Shown: piece after piece, positions 10,310 to 19,824 of the stretch
Layout of the letters: each line of letters begins with the position of its first letter
Position numbering within the stretch: position 1 is the first letter of the stretch
Origin: Natrinema longum
GTDB taxonomy: Archaea; Halobacteriota; Halobacteria; Halobacteriales; Natrialbaceae
Length of the DNA: 64,000 nt
Direction: 5' to 3'
Assembly: GCF_017352095.1 (NCBI RefSeq)
Contig: NZ_CP071463.1
Span: forward strand, 620,001 to 684,000
Notes under the pieces: generated by a model
What the model was told of the DNA's origin: nothing
Seen by the model: the letters and a program-made list of their open reading frames with translations, nothing else
Database searches by the model: none
Translations under genes and position numbers: made by a program

Positions 10310-10882
10310 CTACCCGTCGGTCGCGTTTTCCGTCCCGGAGTCGTCGGTCGCGTTTTCGGTTCCGGAGTCGTCGGTCGCGTTTTCCGCGTCCTGGGCTTGC
10401 TGTTGTTCTTCGAGCATCGCCCGTCGTTGCTCCTCCTGTTGCCGTTGCTGGATGATGAGGTCGTACTGCTCGCCGGGGTAGATACCGCTGACGTCGCCGC
10501 TTCGGAGCGTCTCCATGATCGCCGCGTCGGTCCCCGTCGCACGGAGCAGTCCGTACTCCGGCGCTGACTCCTCGATCGTGAGATCGCTTCCGGCGGACTC
10601 TTCGACGGCCGTCGTGGCTTCCGCCGTCAACTCGGCCCGGCCGTCGCGGAACTCCTGTGCTGCCGCCCGTTCGCTGAGGGTCCCGTTCTCGATCTCGGAG
10701 CGGACCTCGGATTCGAGCTCCGCTAGCTCCGCTTGGGCCGGCGTGACGGCCAGGGTGACCGCGTCGTTCGAACCGCCGTCCGATTGCGACAGGGAATCGA
10801 GTTGCGAACAGCCGGCCAGCGACGCGGCTGTGGTGGTGCCGGCGAGTGCGAGGAATCCACGACGGGTCGGAAGATTCGACAT
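10310..10882 (-). CDS. Tat-exported lipoprotein, unknown function
   Basis: A 190-residue secreted lipoprotein. The twin-arginine signal is TRRGFLALAG (Arg7-Arg8), and the lipobox SLAGC puts the lipidated cysteine at residue 25. So it is folded before Tat export and anchored to the outer face of the membrane. The mature part is helical and acidic. Residues about 150-170 are Gln/Glu-rich (IIQQRQQEEQRRAMLEEQQQ). The tail repeats ENATDDSGT. Partner unknown. A TATA box lies at 10908-10917. It is divergent from nucS with 133 bases between starts. Confidence 0.82.
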   Translation of the reverse strand: MSNLPTRRGFLALAGTTTAASLAGCSQLDSLSQSDGGSNDAVTLAVTPAQAELAELESEVRSEIENGTLSERAAAQEFRDGRAELTAEATTAVEESAGSDLTIEESAPEYGLLRATGTDAAIMETLRSGDVSGIYPGEQYDLIIQQRQQEEQRRAMLEEQQQAQDAENATDDSGTENATDDSGTENATDG

Positions 10883-13436: not shown

Positions 13437-16160
13437 TCACTCCTCGAGTAGCTGCTTCAGCCGATCGAGTTCCGTCAGCGCCTCGACCGGGGTGAGGTGG
13501 GCGAGGTCGAGTGCTCTGAGTTCGGCGGCGACGTCCGTCGGCACGTCCCCACCGTCCGCGGTCGCGGCTTCCGGAGCGCTCTCCGTCGGCTCTGGAACGG
13601 GGTCGCCACTCGAGTCGGCAGCGCTGGTGTCGTCCGTCTCGAGGTCCTCCTCCGCCGCGTCAGCGACCAGTTCTCGCGACCGGTCGACGACGGGGTCGGG
13701 AACGCCGGCCGCGGTCGCGACCTCGACGCCGTAGGAGCCCGTCGCCGCGCCGGGCGCGATCTCGTGGTGGAAGACGACCTCGCCGTCGGTCTGATCGACC
13801 TCGAAGTGCAGCGTGAACGCGGCCGCGAGGTCCTCGGTGAGTTCGGTCAACGGGTGGTGGTGGGTCGCAAACAGCGTCGTCGCGCCGACCTCGTCGTGGA
13901 GGTGTTCGGTGATCGCCTGCGCGATGGCCATCCCGTCGGCCGTCGAGGTACCCCGACCCACTTCGTCTAGCAGAACCAGGGAGTGCTCGTCGGCCTCCCG
14001 CAGGATGGTCGCGAGTTCGTCCATCTCGACCATGAACGTCGAGCGCCCGCCCGCGATGTCGTCGCTGGCTCCCACGCGGGTGAAGATCCGATCGACCGGC
14101 GTGATCCGGGCGGCGCGTGCCGGGACGAAACTCCCGACCTGTGCCAGCAGGACGATCTGGGCCACCTGCCGCATGTACGTCGATTTCCCCGACATGTTCG
14201 GCCCCGTGATCACCGCCAGCCGCCGATCGTCGGTGAAGCGAGCGTCGTTGGGGACGAACGACTCCTGTGTCCGTTCGACGACGGGGTGGCGACCGCCCTC
14301 GATCTCGAGGGTCTGACTCCCGTCGCGCTCGAGGATCTCGGGCCGACAGTAGTCGTACTGGGCGGCGGCCGACGCCAGCGAGACGAGGGCATCGAGCGTC
14401 GCGAGCGCCTCGGCGAGCCCTTGCACGCGTTCGACCTCCGCCGCGATCTCGCGGCGAACGTCACGGAACAGTTCGTACTCCCGTTCGTCCGCGCGTTCTT
14501 CCGCACCGACGATCCGATCCTCGCGCTCTTTGAGCTCCGGCGTGACGAATCGCTCCGAGTTCTTCAGCGTCTGCCTGCGCTGGTAGTCCTCGGGAACGGC
14601 ATCGAGGTTCGGGTTCGTCACCTCGATGTAGTAGCCGTGGACCGAGTTGTAGCCGACCTTCAGCGAGTCGATCCCGGTCCGGTCGCGCTCGCGGGCTTCG
14701 AGATCGTCGATCCACTGCTTGCCGTCTCTGGCGGTCGCACGCAACTCGTCGAGGTCCCCGTCGTACCCCTCAGCGATGACCCCGCCCTCGGTGATCTCGA
14801 TCGGCGGATCGGCGACGATCGCGTCGTCGATCAGTTCGCGGACCGCCGTCAGCGGATCGAGATCGGCGGACAGTTCCCGGAGCCGATCACACTCCGCATC
14901 GGCGAGTTCCTCGCGAACGTCGGGGACTACCGCGAGCGTGTCACGGAGCGACCGCAGGTCCCGGGCGTTCGCTCGCTCGCGGGAGATCCGCCCGATCAAC
15001 CGCTCGAGGTCGTAGACGTCCCGCAGACGCTCGTGCAGTCGCTCGCGCGTCCGGACCGCGCTCGTGAGTTCCGCGACGGCGTCGAGTCGCGCCTCGATGC
15101 GGTCGGGTTCGAGCAGCGGCCGCCGGAGCCAGTCCCGAAGTTTTCTGCCGCCGAGTGCGCTTGCGGTTTCGTCGAGGACGCCGACGAGTGTCGCGTCCTC
15201 GCGCCCGTGGACGGCGCGCGGTTCGAACAGCTCGAGGCTGCGCAGCGCCACGGCGTCCAACAGGAGGTACTCGCGGGGATCGTACCGCGTGAGGTGGGTG
15301 AGGTACTCGAGGCGGGCACCCCCCTCGGAATTCGGGGCCTCGTCCGTATCGTCGTCGCTCGTCTCGCCGCTTTCACCCTCGTGTGTCCCGCCGCGGACGT
15401 ACTCGGCGTAGGAAAGCAACGCGCCACAGGCACGGATTTCGGCGTCGCTCGCGAGCAAGGCGTCGGGGTTGCGGAAGTACGTCGAAAGCTTCGCCCCGGC
15501 GCTGTCACGGTCGAACGCTGCCTCGTCGTACGGCGTGACCATACAGTTCTCGGGGACGAGGTCGGCGGGCGCGTCCGGTCCGACGACGGCCTCGGCGGGT
15601 GCAAAGCGGCTCACCTCGTCGGCGATCGATTCCCTGGCGGTGGAACTCGTCGCGAGGAAATCGCCCGTGGAGACATCGAGCAAAGCGAGTGCCAGTTCGT
15701 CGTCCCCCGTTCGGGCCGCTCGCTCGCGAGCGATTGCCGCCACGAAGTTGTTGTCGTCGCTCGCGAGGAGTTCGTCTTCGGTGAGCGTTCCGGGCGTAAT
15801 CACGCGCGTCACTGCCCGTTCGACGACGCCCGCGCTCTCGCCGGGCTCTTCGACCTGATCGGCCACTGCAACCCGGTAGCCCGCCTCGAGTAGCTCTTCG
15901 ATGTACGATTCGGCGTTGTCGATGGGGATGCCGGCCATCGGATACTCGCCAGTACTGTCCTCGCGGCTCGTCAGGGCGATCTCGAGCAGGCGCGCGGTCC
16001 GTTCGGCCGCGCCACAGAACGTCTCGTAGAAGTCGCCCACCTGAAAGAGGACGATCGCCTCGTCGTAGCGCGCACAGAGATCGTGGTACTGCGCCATCAT
16101 GGGCGTCAGCTCGTCGCGCTTTGCGGCCATCGCCTCGGGCGGGCCAAGCGCCGGATCCAT
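13437..16160 (-). CDS. mutS: DNA mismatch repair protein MutS
   Basis: A 907-residue MutS1. The mismatch-recognition Phe-x-Glu is in VGDFYETF (Phe44, Glu46). The connector, lever and clamp domains follow. The ATPase has Walker [10 protein letters not shown] (653-661), Walker [13 protein letters not shown] with Asp732-Glu733, and the [11 protein letters not shown] His motif. A low-complexity acidic linker (about 835-875) precedes a C-terminal helix that probably mediates oligomerisation. An additional acidic insert at about 255-282 is typical of haloarchaeal proteins. A TATA box at 16184-16192 supports ATG 16160. No mutL is adjacent. Confidence 0.96.
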
Positions 16161-16650: not shown

Positions 16651-18102
16651 TCAGTCAGCCCCGCTTCCTGACCCACCGCCGTTTCCGGAGCCGCTATCCG
16701 ATCCTGGCTCACCGCTCGCACCGTTTCCAGCCCCGTTCCCGGCTCCCGATTCGCCGTCGTTTCCGGGCGTCCTATCGGGCCCCGACTCACCGCCGCTGTT
16801 CCCAGGTGTCGTCTCCGATCCGGGCTCACGAGCGCTGTTTCCGGACGCGCTGTCAGGTCCCGAGTCGCCGGTGTTGCCGGGTGTGTTCTCAGATCCCGAA
16901 TCACCGCTGTTGCCAGGTGTACTCTCGGGTCCCGAATCGCCGGTGTTGCCGGGTGTGTTCTCAGATCCCGAATCGCCGCTGTTGCCGGGTGAACTCTCAG
17001 ATCCCGAATCACCGTTGTTGCCGGGTGAACTCTCAGATCCCGGGTCGCCGGTGTTTCCAGGTGTGCTCTCAGATTCCGAGTTACCGCTATTGCCGGGTGT
17101 GCTCTCAGATCCCGAGTCACCGCTGTTGCCGGGTTTGTTCTCAGGTCCCGAATCACCGTTGTTTCCGGGTGTGTTCTCAGGTCCCGAATCACCGTTGTTT
17201 CCGGGTGTGTTCTCAGGTCCCGAGTCGCCGCCGTTCCCAGGCGTGGTATCCGTTCCACCGGGGCTGTTCCCGGGTGTATCCTTGGGGTTCGAGTCGTTGC
17301 CGTTTCCGGGTGCGCTCTCAGGCCCCGAATCGCCGCTGTTCCCGGGTTTCGGATCCGGCCCGGACCCGCTGGCGCTGTTTCCGGGTGCGCGCTCAGGACC
17401 TGACTCACCGTTGGCGTTTCCGAGCGTGCCATCAGCCCCTTGCCCACCCTTGTCGGCGGGCCCGCCACGATCGGCCGGTGGTCCCGTGCCGACACCGGCC
17501 GACCCCTTCGGCTCGGACAGTCCTCGAGCGACCGGCTCGATGCTGGGGCCTGCTTGTTCCGAGGCGTTTCGTCGGGCTTCGGTCGCGTTCTCCCGAAGCG
17601 CAGCGAGTCGAGTTTCGGTCCCACCCGTCTCGGCAGCACGGCGCTCGGTTCGATCGATCGATCGTTCGAGGGCCGCGATTTCGACCGTCACCGTCGCCAT
17701 TCGAGACTGATAGGCTCCACGGGAAAGATTGTCACGTTGCTCCCGGAGTTCGGCGCGTTCCGCCTCGAGATCCCGCAACTGCGCTTCGAGGTCGGTCGTT
17801 CGTTCGTCGACGAGCGCAGTTTGGCTGTCGGTGTCCGAAGCGTCGTATGCTGCGTCGAACATCTCGGTATCGACCGTCTGTTTGGTATCGGCTGCGCTCG
17901 CTTGCATCAACGCCCCGACTGACGCGTTCGTCGGTCCCGTCCCCCCGACTGACGCGTTCATCGCTCCCGTCTCGGCGTGGTCGGGTTGGGTGAGTTGGGC
18001 CCCGGTCAACGGACTCACGACGGCACCGCTTACCAGCGGTGCGGCTGTGAGTGCGAGGGCGGCGAGGGCCACGAAGAGGGCAACCGACCGAGTGGTTGTC
18101 AT
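16651..18102 (-). CDS. Secreted coiled-coil protein with long PGN tandem-repeat domain
   Basis: A 483-residue protein. A Sec signal peptide covers residues 1-27 (hydrophobic core VALFVALAALALTAAPL). A coiled-coil segment (about 95-165) contains LEAQLRDLEAERAELREQRD. From about 230 to the end it is a low-complexity, Gly/Ser/Pro/Asn repeat. The commonest unit is 12 residues, PGN-x-GDSG-x-E-x-T, about 17 copies with variations. There is no PGF-CTERM anchor, so it is probably released or held by other means. Function unknown; a surface spacer, adhesin or matrix protein is inference. A TATA-like TTTTTAG lies about 30 bases before the ATG. Confidence 0.8.
   Translation of the reverse strand: MTTTRSVALFVALAALALTAAPLVSGAVVSPLTGAQLTQPDHAETGAMNASVGGTGPTNASVGALMQASAADTKQTVDTEMFDAAYDASDTDSQTALVDERTTDLEAQLRDLEAERAELREQRDNLSRGAYQSRMATVTVEIAALERSIDRTERRAAETGGTETRLAALRENATEARRNASEQAGPSIEPVARGLSEPKGSAGVGTGPPADRGGPADKGGQGADGTLGNANGESGPERAPGNSASGSGPDPKPGNSGDSGPESAPGNGNDSNPKDTPGNSPGGTDTTPGNGGDSGPENTPGNNGDSGPENTPGNNGDSGPENKPGNSGDSGSESTPGNSGNSESESTPGNTGDPGSESSPGNNGDSGSESSPGNSGDSGSENTPGNTGDSGPESTPGNSGDSGSENTPGNTGDSGPDSASGNSAREPGSETTPGNSGGESGPDRTPGNDGESGAGNGAGNGASGEPGSDSGSGNGGGSGSGAD
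16750..17410 (-). repeat. Coding minisatellite, 36-base unit
   Basis: Direct repeats of about 36 bases, each coding PGN-(N/S/T/G)-GDSG-(P/S)-E-(N/S)-(T/S/K). The central 9-10 copies (about 16860-17230) are nearly identical and edge copies are diverged. Such an array can expand or contract by slippage or recombination without breaking the frame. Confidence 0.85.
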
Positions 18103-18472: not shown

Positions 18473-18865
18473 ATGTTCGAGGTGTTCTCACAGGGCTACT
18501 ATCTCGGACGGCTCTACGTGACCCCGACCGACGGGGATCGCGCACTCATGGATCAGACCCAACACGAGCGGATCAACGAGGCGGTGTACGCGAGTGGGAC
18601 GGGCCTCGAGCGACTCGACGCCCCGCTGGTGATGAAACTCGAATCCCGGCACTTCCCGGTTCACGGGTCGACGACCGTCCCGACGAACACGCTCGCGCTT
18701 CCGGAATCGATGCTCGAGGGAACCGAAATCAGGAACCCGCCCTCGCTTCGAGAGGTGTTCCTCGCCCGTCGAGAACGTGCCAGGCAGTTGCTCGAGTTTA
18801 CCGGAAACTGGCAGGAGCGGGGCCACACCCGCCCGTCAGACGACCGAGGAAACGTCGGAACGTAG
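18473..18865 (+). CDS. DUF5802 family protein
   Basis: A 130-residue haloarchaeal-specific protein. It begins MFEVFSQGYYLGRLYVTP and continues with DQTQHERINEAVYASG, LDAPLVMKLESRHFPVHG and the closing NPPSLREVFLARRERARQLLEF, which I recognise as the DUF5802 pattern. Cytoplasmic, function unknown. The strong TATA box suggests appreciable expression. The Vms1-like gene follows 29 bases later and may be co-transcribed, which would loosely link it to translation quality control; that link is inference. Confidence 0.8.
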   Translation: MFEVFSQGYYLGRLYVTPTDGDRALMDQTQHERINEAVYASGTGLERLDAPLVMKLESRHFPVHGSTTVPTNTLALPESMLEGTEIRNPPSLREVFLARRERARQLLEFTGNWQERGHTRPSDDRGNVGT

Positions 18866-18894
18866 AAGTAGGCTCGCTTCGCGTTTTCGGCTGG

Positions 18895-19824
18895 ATGCTC
18901 GACGAGTTGCTCGGCCGCGCATCGCTCAAGGAGCGAATCGACGAACTCGAGGACGAAAACGAGCGGTTGCGGAAGCGCTACGAGGCCGAATCCGAACGGC
19001 GGGCCGACGCTGCGACCGCCAGACAGGACGCCGAGGAGCGAATCAACCGACTCGAGGATCGGATCGCCCAACTCGAGGGCGAACTCGAACGGGAACCCGA
19101 GGCGGACCCCGGGCTCACCGTCCGTCGCCGTGATCGACTCCGGGGCGGCGACCTCGAAGCGGTGTTCGAGCGACTATCCTCGTTTCGGACGGGTCCCGAA
19201 GGCGCACTGACCGTCGGGGTGGCCGACGAGGTCTCGGACTCGGTTCGGACTGCCCTCGACGACGTCCTGGGCGATCGGATCGCACTCCTCGAGGACGCGA
19301 CACCGTGTCTGTGTTGCGTCGACGATGCGGGACTCCTCGCGGTGACCCTCGAACCCCCTCTCGTCCCCGAACAGGACGCGGTCTGGAACGACAGGTTCGC
19401 ACTCGAGCGGGAGTGGTTCCTGCCGACCGGCCGACACGCGATCGCGCTCGTCCGGACGGATCTGTTCGCCCTCGGCACCTACGAGGACGACGACCGGGTC
19501 GCCTATCGCGGGTTCGAAAGCGACGTCAAGGGGAGCCACTCGAAAGGAGGATTCTCCCAGGCTCGATTCGAGCGGATTCGCGACGGACAGATCGACGACC
19601 ACCTCGAGCGCTGTCGGGAGGCGCTCGCCGAGTACGAGGCCGGGGGCGACCGGGCCGACACGCCGCTGTATCTCGTCGGCCAGCGCGGCATCGTCGACGC
19701 GCTCGTCGAGGAATCCGATCTCGAGCCGAGCGCGACGGCCGCCGTCGACGCGACCGGCGATCCGAAACCGGCGCTCGAACAGGCCGTCCACTCGTTCTGG
19801 ACGACCGAACTGCGGGTCCTGTAG
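18895..19824 (+). CDS. Vms1/Ankzf1-family peptidyl-tRNA hydrolase-like protein
   Basis: A 309-residue protein. A long N-terminal coiled coil (about 5-70; IDELEDENERLRKRYEAES and onwards) precedes a VLRF1 domain related to release factor eRF1. Its signature loop is SHSKGGFSQARFERIRDGQ at about 214-232. Eukaryotic Vms1/ANKZF1 uses such a loop to release stalled nascent chains from tRNA on split ribosomes. Here the GGQ is replaced by GGF with a Gln two positions later, as in related archaeal forms. A CLCCVDDAG stretch is notable. Function in rescue is inferred from the family. It starts 29 bases after DUF5802. Confidence 0.82.
   Translation: MLDELLGRASLKERIDELEDENERLRKRYEAESERRADAATARQDAEERINRLEDRIAQLEGELEREPEADPGLTVRRRDRLRGGDLEAVFERLSSFRTGPEGALTVGVADEVSDSVRTALDDVLGDRIALLEDATPCLCCVDDAGLLAVTLEPPLVPEQDAVWNDRFALEREWFLPTGRHAIALVRTDLFALGTYEDDDRVAYRGFESDVKGSHSKGGFSQARFERIRDGQIDDHLERCREALAEYEAGGDRADTPLYLVGQRGIVDALVEESDLEPSATAAVDATGDPKPALEQAVHSFWTTELRVL

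Follow-up and report, generated by a model that had tools for sequence, protein, structure and literature searches.

The tandem array of 12-residue units that makes this protein striking is the least conserved part of an otherwise widely conserved haloarchaeal protein, one to which none of the Pfam and NCBIfam models searched assigns a name. Comparison of the sequences indicates that the helical front half, and not the repeat, is the conserved part, and that the repeat, far from being a conserved functional module, elaborates a predicted disordered tail in one lineage. Attention thereby shifts to the helical domain and to its kept place opposite a DUF5802 gene. The gene was studied in a stretch of 64,000 bases, here called the window, from the genome of Natrinema longum, which consists of a single contig of 3,588,874 bases; its features are listed in Table 1.

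Table 1. Features of the focal gene and its divergent neighbours, in window coordinates.
Feature	Position	Strand	Evidence
Entire gene; product of 483 aa, probably exported	16651-18102	-	Open reading frame; match in 29/29 genus genomes, own genome included
Signal-peptide-like start, residues ~1-27	18022-18102	-	By eye and hydropathy
30-base in-frame tandem duplication	17913-17971	-	Tandem Repeats Finder; alignment with N. ejinorense
Conserved helical domain, residues 58-196	17515-17931	-	AlphaFold2; conserved columns
Hydrophilic tail (Gly/Ser/Pro/Asn/Asp/Glu/Thr), residues 197-483; disorder predicted	16654-17514	-	Model; composition
Two clean 12-residue units apart from the core array, residues 253-276	17275-17346	-	
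Core array of 11 adjoining units of 12 residues (36 bases), residues 288-419	16846-17241	-	
Genes divergent from the focal gene: DUF5802 (18473-18865) and VLRF1-type release factor (18895-19824)	18473-19824	+	Pfam; position kept in relatives

An earlier note on this DNA had described a signal peptide, and a start of this kind is indeed visible by eye, with an Arg, a hydrophobic core and then small residues at its end; its hydropathy has a maximum of 2.38. According to the alignment and hydropathy, a hydrophobic N-terminus is common to the family, and the focal protein is probably exported. As it lacks any cysteine, it has no lipobox, and none of the 32 translated proteins compared contains a cysteine either. 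No sortase signal was seen in the focal protein, in agreement with the earlier note, and no membrane-anchor-like stretch was found in the tail, in which hydropathy over 19 residues does not rise above -0.66 and which ends in GSGSGAD. Archaeosortase substrates of the PGF-CTERM type are marked near the C-terminus by a PGF motif with a membrane helix behind it; the C-terminus of the focal protein has no hydrophobic stretch. Just N-terminal of the helical domain, the short tandem duplication adds 10 residues relative to Natrinema ejinorense and includes a second NASVG. A scan of the sigma-70 type, which is unsuited to archaea, returned no promoter.

What had been read as a coiled coil is helical in our models as well, and is more exactly predicted to form four long helices and one short helix (residues 59-88, 91-121, 128-159, 163-184 and 188-196; AlphaFold2, 11 sequences), with a pLDDT of at least 90 at 86 domain residues. 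A full-length model based on 8 sequences contained the same helices, the last one at 189-194, and a tail that has no secondary structure and a pLDDT mostly under 50, the array included. The tail is therefore predicted to be disordered. The charge-hydropathy criterion is weak evidence in this case, because the helical domain itself also scores slightly on the disordered side (-0.057). With the helical domain as query, none of 430 Foldseek matches reached an E-value of 0.001 or less. The best VIA-align Z-score of 11.7 was tied with generic helical bundles, and the matches listed (best 50, Z 9.3-11.7) included STAT, CorA, BAG and designed proteins; VIA-align itself warns that generic bundle matches are common for helical models. 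Since only generic helical bundles were matched, we do not name a fold. A sequence search of the PDB yielded two weak matches, both to synthetic helices.

The gene is more widely rooted than had been supposed. It was matched in all 29 genus genomes, the window genome counted, and in 123 of the 125 family genomes. Within the class, a profile built from 18 domains matched at least 345 of 391 genomes, which represent 75 of 84 genera. This tally pools the focal type with a paralogue type found at locus L002 of the same genome, and thus does not tell how many genomes of the class have the focal type; in addition, at most eight candidates were scored per genome, and one genome unmatched in the tally (G137) was matched when more were scored. 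In a sample of 146 genomes of the phylum, 25 gave a match. Of these, 24 belong to the order, and the single match outside the order (E 1.5e-4, 95 columns) was weak and was taken as a chance coiled-coil similarity. No Pfam or NCBIfam model reached its cut-off with the focal protein or with the scanned orthologues.

The array itself was reported by Tandem Repeats Finder at window positions 16833-17347, with 14.4 copies of 36 bases and 77% matches. The protein contains 20 PG[NST] tripeptides, 17 of which are PGN, so that the earlier count of about 17 PGN units agrees with the number of tripeptides; 13 units are clean 12-mers, and 11 of these stand head to tail. At a shift of 12 residues the self-identity of the tail is 0.444, compared to a maximum of 0.24 in 2000 composition-preserving shuffles over shifts 3-39. 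To call the central units nearly identical was a little strong, since adjacent unit pairs in the window strain (n = 11) differ at 1-14 of 36 bases; in N. ejinorense, 2 of 12 adjacent pairs show no base difference. The description of an acidic repeat in an archaeon is supported. A genome-wide DNA search with the array returned two matches, the array itself and its own edge; with a single genomic occurrence, in frame and inside a conserved gene, a role as mobile or regulatory DNA was rejected. Between units, pN/pS was 0.42-0.49 (from a list of 30 entries, two of which are not true units), meaning that amino-acid changes are rarer per site than silent ones, and over the 195 aligned N-terminal residues it was 0.21. 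This silent excess between units suggests that the unit is under some constraint and that the tail is not wholly free. The core array of the window holds 20 Asn and 38 Ser/Thr residues, yet it is free of N-X-S/T sequons, as is that of N. ejinorense, and five sequons are present in residues 1-196. The units being copies of each other, the missing sequons count as one event, and no conclusion on N-glycosylation was drawn from them.

Tails differ widely among relatives. In the 32 translated proteins they are 43-309 residues long with 0-2 aromatic residues each. In five additional proteins, all from a single genus, the tail comprises only ~20-40 residues, depending on the domain end chosen, which indicates that a long tail is not needed in that genus; the tail of the G049 protein is likewise short. 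Periodicity was assessed in a set of 52 proteins, 20 of them more distant, of which 50 could be split into domain and tail by a motif (all except L020 and L085). At p < 0.01, 21 of the 50 tails are periodic, and the best periods take 13 different values (4, 6, 8, 9, 10, 12, 14, 15, 16, 18, 19, 21 and 24). The residues G, P, S, N, D, E, T and A account for 78-98% of the 50 tails, with 0-3 aromatic residues. When a tree was built from the domain, eight Natrinema proteins labelled period 12 (best period 12 or 24, p up to 0.01) fell inside one clade of 11 rows (support 83/91), in which the 12-residue unit has decayed or been lost in three rows; L015, which belongs to this clade, has a best period of 12 at p 0.28 and was labelled as having none. 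Four proteins with 9- or 18-residue repeats fall inside another clade of five, and one protein has period 10. Outside these two clades another repeat or none is present, and many relatives are repeat-free or short-tailed. To judge from this distribution, the 12-residue frame seems to have been invented at the level of the clade, its letters being rewritten afterwards. In 12 of 12 hand-chosen pairs of relatives the domain was more identical than the tail (86-98% versus 69-96%).

The earlier note had proposed that the number of units can change without loss of frame and had named a fixed copy number as the observation that would speak against it. The number is not fixed in the two same-species genomes available, the second of which is N. 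ejinorense JCM 13890, flagged as the same species and with a gene identical in every letter to that in the record of this strain: there are 13 clean units in the window and 15 in N. ejinorense, and the tails are 287 and 309 residues long, respectively, the latter being 22 residues longer. From the start codon through the domain the two genes are 96.7% identical over 571 bases and at the C-terminal end of the tail 93.9%, compared to 75.9% with 66 gap columns across the array. The mean base difference among units is 0.212 within the window, 0.168 within N. ejinorense and 0.241 between the strains, and for 22 of 28 units the closest relative lies in the own genome (three in the other genome, three tied); in 10,000 label shuffles, a difference between own and other as large as the one observed did not occur once. 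That units are closer to those of their own genome implies that the array turns over, and we regard the pattern as the mark of recent duplication and homogenisation of units, as far as two sequences can tell. As a control, a 9-residue repeat in a lipoprotein-like gene (10310-10882), the product of which ends in three ENATDDSGT-type copies, aligns within the gene free of gaps when the two genomes are compared, which shows that some repeats here do not vary. The comparison covers two genomes, and N. ejinorense is represented by a shotgun assembly, in which errors at repeats are possible. The pair represents an archaeal coding minisatellite that has recently turned over, and it provides a tractable case in which to ask whether the length of a predicted disordered tail is selected.

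With somewhat better than even confidence, we propose from sequence and models that the focal protein is an envelope or secreted protein, in which the domain carries the function and the tail acts as a hydrophilic spacer of changeable length. The signal peptide would direct Sec export across the membrane, the helical domain would fold or self-associate beside the membrane or the S-layer and carry the conserved function, and the acidic Gly/Pro/Ser-rich tail would stay unfolded as a hydrated spacer or bristle. If selection on the tail is mainly for composition and flexibility, the tail would tolerate short duplications; slippage or unequal recombination in whole-codon steps could then duplicate and homogenise short stretches and give rise to units peculiar to a clade, the PGN repeat of 12 residues among them. 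Against a spacer speak the signs of constraint on the unit, the persistence of period 12 in one clade, where the unit itself could matter, and the tails of ~20-40 residues in one genus, which indicate that length is not always needed. Its main rival, which we regard as possible but appreciably less probable, is that the tail is neutral filler, so that any export-compatible hydrophilic sequence is tolerated, repeats arise from mutation pressure and length has no role. This would account for the great range of tail lengths, for the lack of repeats in many congeners, for units that are not kept between clades and for the five very short tails. Against neutral filler speak the narrow choice of eight residue types and the scarcity of aromatics across 50 tails, although a GC-rich acidic proteome could explain part of that, and the silent excess between units. 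If tail length did prove neutral, the protein would be a useful caution against inferring function from repeats.

More specific roles for the repeat appear less plausible. The earlier note had suggested a collagen-like matrix or attachment protein, which is not supported, as Gly-X-Y is broken in each core unit of the window strain and the unit is not kept between clades. A sequence-specific binding or matrix module in a length-varying haloarchaeal attachment protein would fit the probable export, the repeats, the strain-level difference in length and the excess of silent changes over replacements per site, but with a unit that is not kept outside one clade, decayed or lost in some of its rows, and with no anchor seen, we consider it distinctly unlikely. 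The resemblance to collagen is real as composition, given that, in 10-11 of the 11 core units, Gly is the residue at positions 2, 5 and 8 and thereby fits three of four triplets, and the Scl2/SclB model matches the window protein with an E-value of 1.4e-14. However, a collagen-like triple helix formed from Gly-X-Y repeats is very improbable: in the window strain all 11 core units depart from the pattern at the fourth triplet, the longest Gly-X-Y run is 3 triplets in the window core and 7 in N. ejinorense, and the Pfam Collagen scores are 11.4 and 19.7 bits, respectively, against a cut-off of 27.2. The window protein scores 26.4 bits with SclA (NCBIfam NF038330; cut-off 400) and 53.9 bits with SclB (NF038329; cut-off 325). 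The focal protein shares with these proteins a Gly-rich periodic region preceded by helices, but differs by the interruption at every fourth triplet and by the lack of a visible sortase signal, and its membership in the collagen or Scl families was rejected because it has no long uninterrupted Gly-X-Y stretch and scores under the curated cut-offs. By analogy, the nearest concept for strain-level length variation is that of the Periscope Proteins, described as bacterial surface proteins with near-identical tandem units that differ in number between strains and, in the examples named, with a wall anchor (PMC8201768, PMC9704523); their repeats are folded domains forming rods (PMC9704523). A similar surface projector, in which the number of units sets how far the domain reaches through or beyond the S-layer, would agree with the within-species difference in unit number and the homogenised units, but the focal units of 12 residues are predicted to be unfolded and no C-terminal surface-attachment motif is seen in the tail, which makes this quite improbable. 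One might also speculate, as an unlikely though not far-fetched option, that this is a widespread haloarchaeal envelope protein with a tail that serves as a tunable, predicted-disordered spacer, expanding by repeats and matched to the S-layer or the brine; this would be an archaeal system of length variation that needs neither folded repeats nor a covalent anchor, its gene being kept opposite the DUF5802 and release-factor pair. Lastly, the array could be non-coding on the minus strand, since an open frame of 636 aa is present on the plus strand too. Open frames on the opposite strand are common in GC-rich DNA, and the recurrence of the minus-strand domain throughout the genus and in nearly all family genomes, together with the silent excess between units, leaves a spurious frame with a practically negligible chance.

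The L002 paralogue resembles the focal protein in having a signal-like start and a hydrophilic tail, but it is encoded at another locus, carries a VGVQ motif where the focal type has MQAS, and has no long repeat array. Profile-profile comparison shows the two types to be homologous over the whole domain (probability 99.3%, 177 columns, E 4.4e-20). The paralogue gene (L002 1438-2217) lies directly downstream of a gene for a membrane protein (L002 179-1330), the C-terminal end of which looks helix-turn-helix-like by eye. Three loci outside the family (L097, L143 and L144) hold the L002 type at the matched place, as judged by eye. L002 itself scores 23.6 bits with DUF7096 (PF23379), and other L002-type proteins score 20.6, 26.4 and 33.5 bits, the last of which passes the cut-off of 27. 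In contrast, the focal protein gave no match to DUF7096 at E-values up to 1, and a direct comparison of the focal type with the DUF7096 profile reached 72% over 77 columns only. With L002-type proteins near or over the cut-off, the focal type is joined to DUF7096 via the L002 type. DUF7096 is likewise a probably exported haloarchaeal helical domain, but the strong DUF7096 protein of the window genome is the product of another gene (L082, 218 bits). A literature search retrieved no paper on DUF7096 or DUF5802 and, among the papers listed for repeat-bearing or secreted proteins of haloarchaea, for Vms1-like release factors and for N. ejinorense, nothing on the focal family; the term 'haloarchae' does not occur in PMC6514570.

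In 27 of 27 congener loci the strand opposite to the focal gene carries the genes for both DUF5802 and the VLRF1-type release factor; this also holds for 10 of 10 loci examined with longer flanks, a set that shares genomes with the 27. A further 20 distant loci were hand-picked from the best rows of the class tally, 17 of them from outside the family. In these short stretches an opposite-strand DUF5802 gene lies within ~1.3 kb at 18 loci, and VLRF1 is present at 12. The distant loci without DUF5802 are L087 and L097, and L097 is of the L002 type. From the 46 genomes unmatched in the class tally, 12 were taken as an absence control; 11 of them have DUF5802, and by eye none of these shows the focal gene in the 1.5 kb on the upstream side of DUF5802, where other genes are present. 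The link to DUF5802 and VLRF1 may thus far be put down to a shared promoter region or to simple conservation of gene order. On its downstream side, the focal gene is followed by mutS (window 13437-16160). MutS was rejected as a partner, as among 10 loci for which 4-kb flanks were compared it adjoins the focal gene in one, from N. ejinorense.
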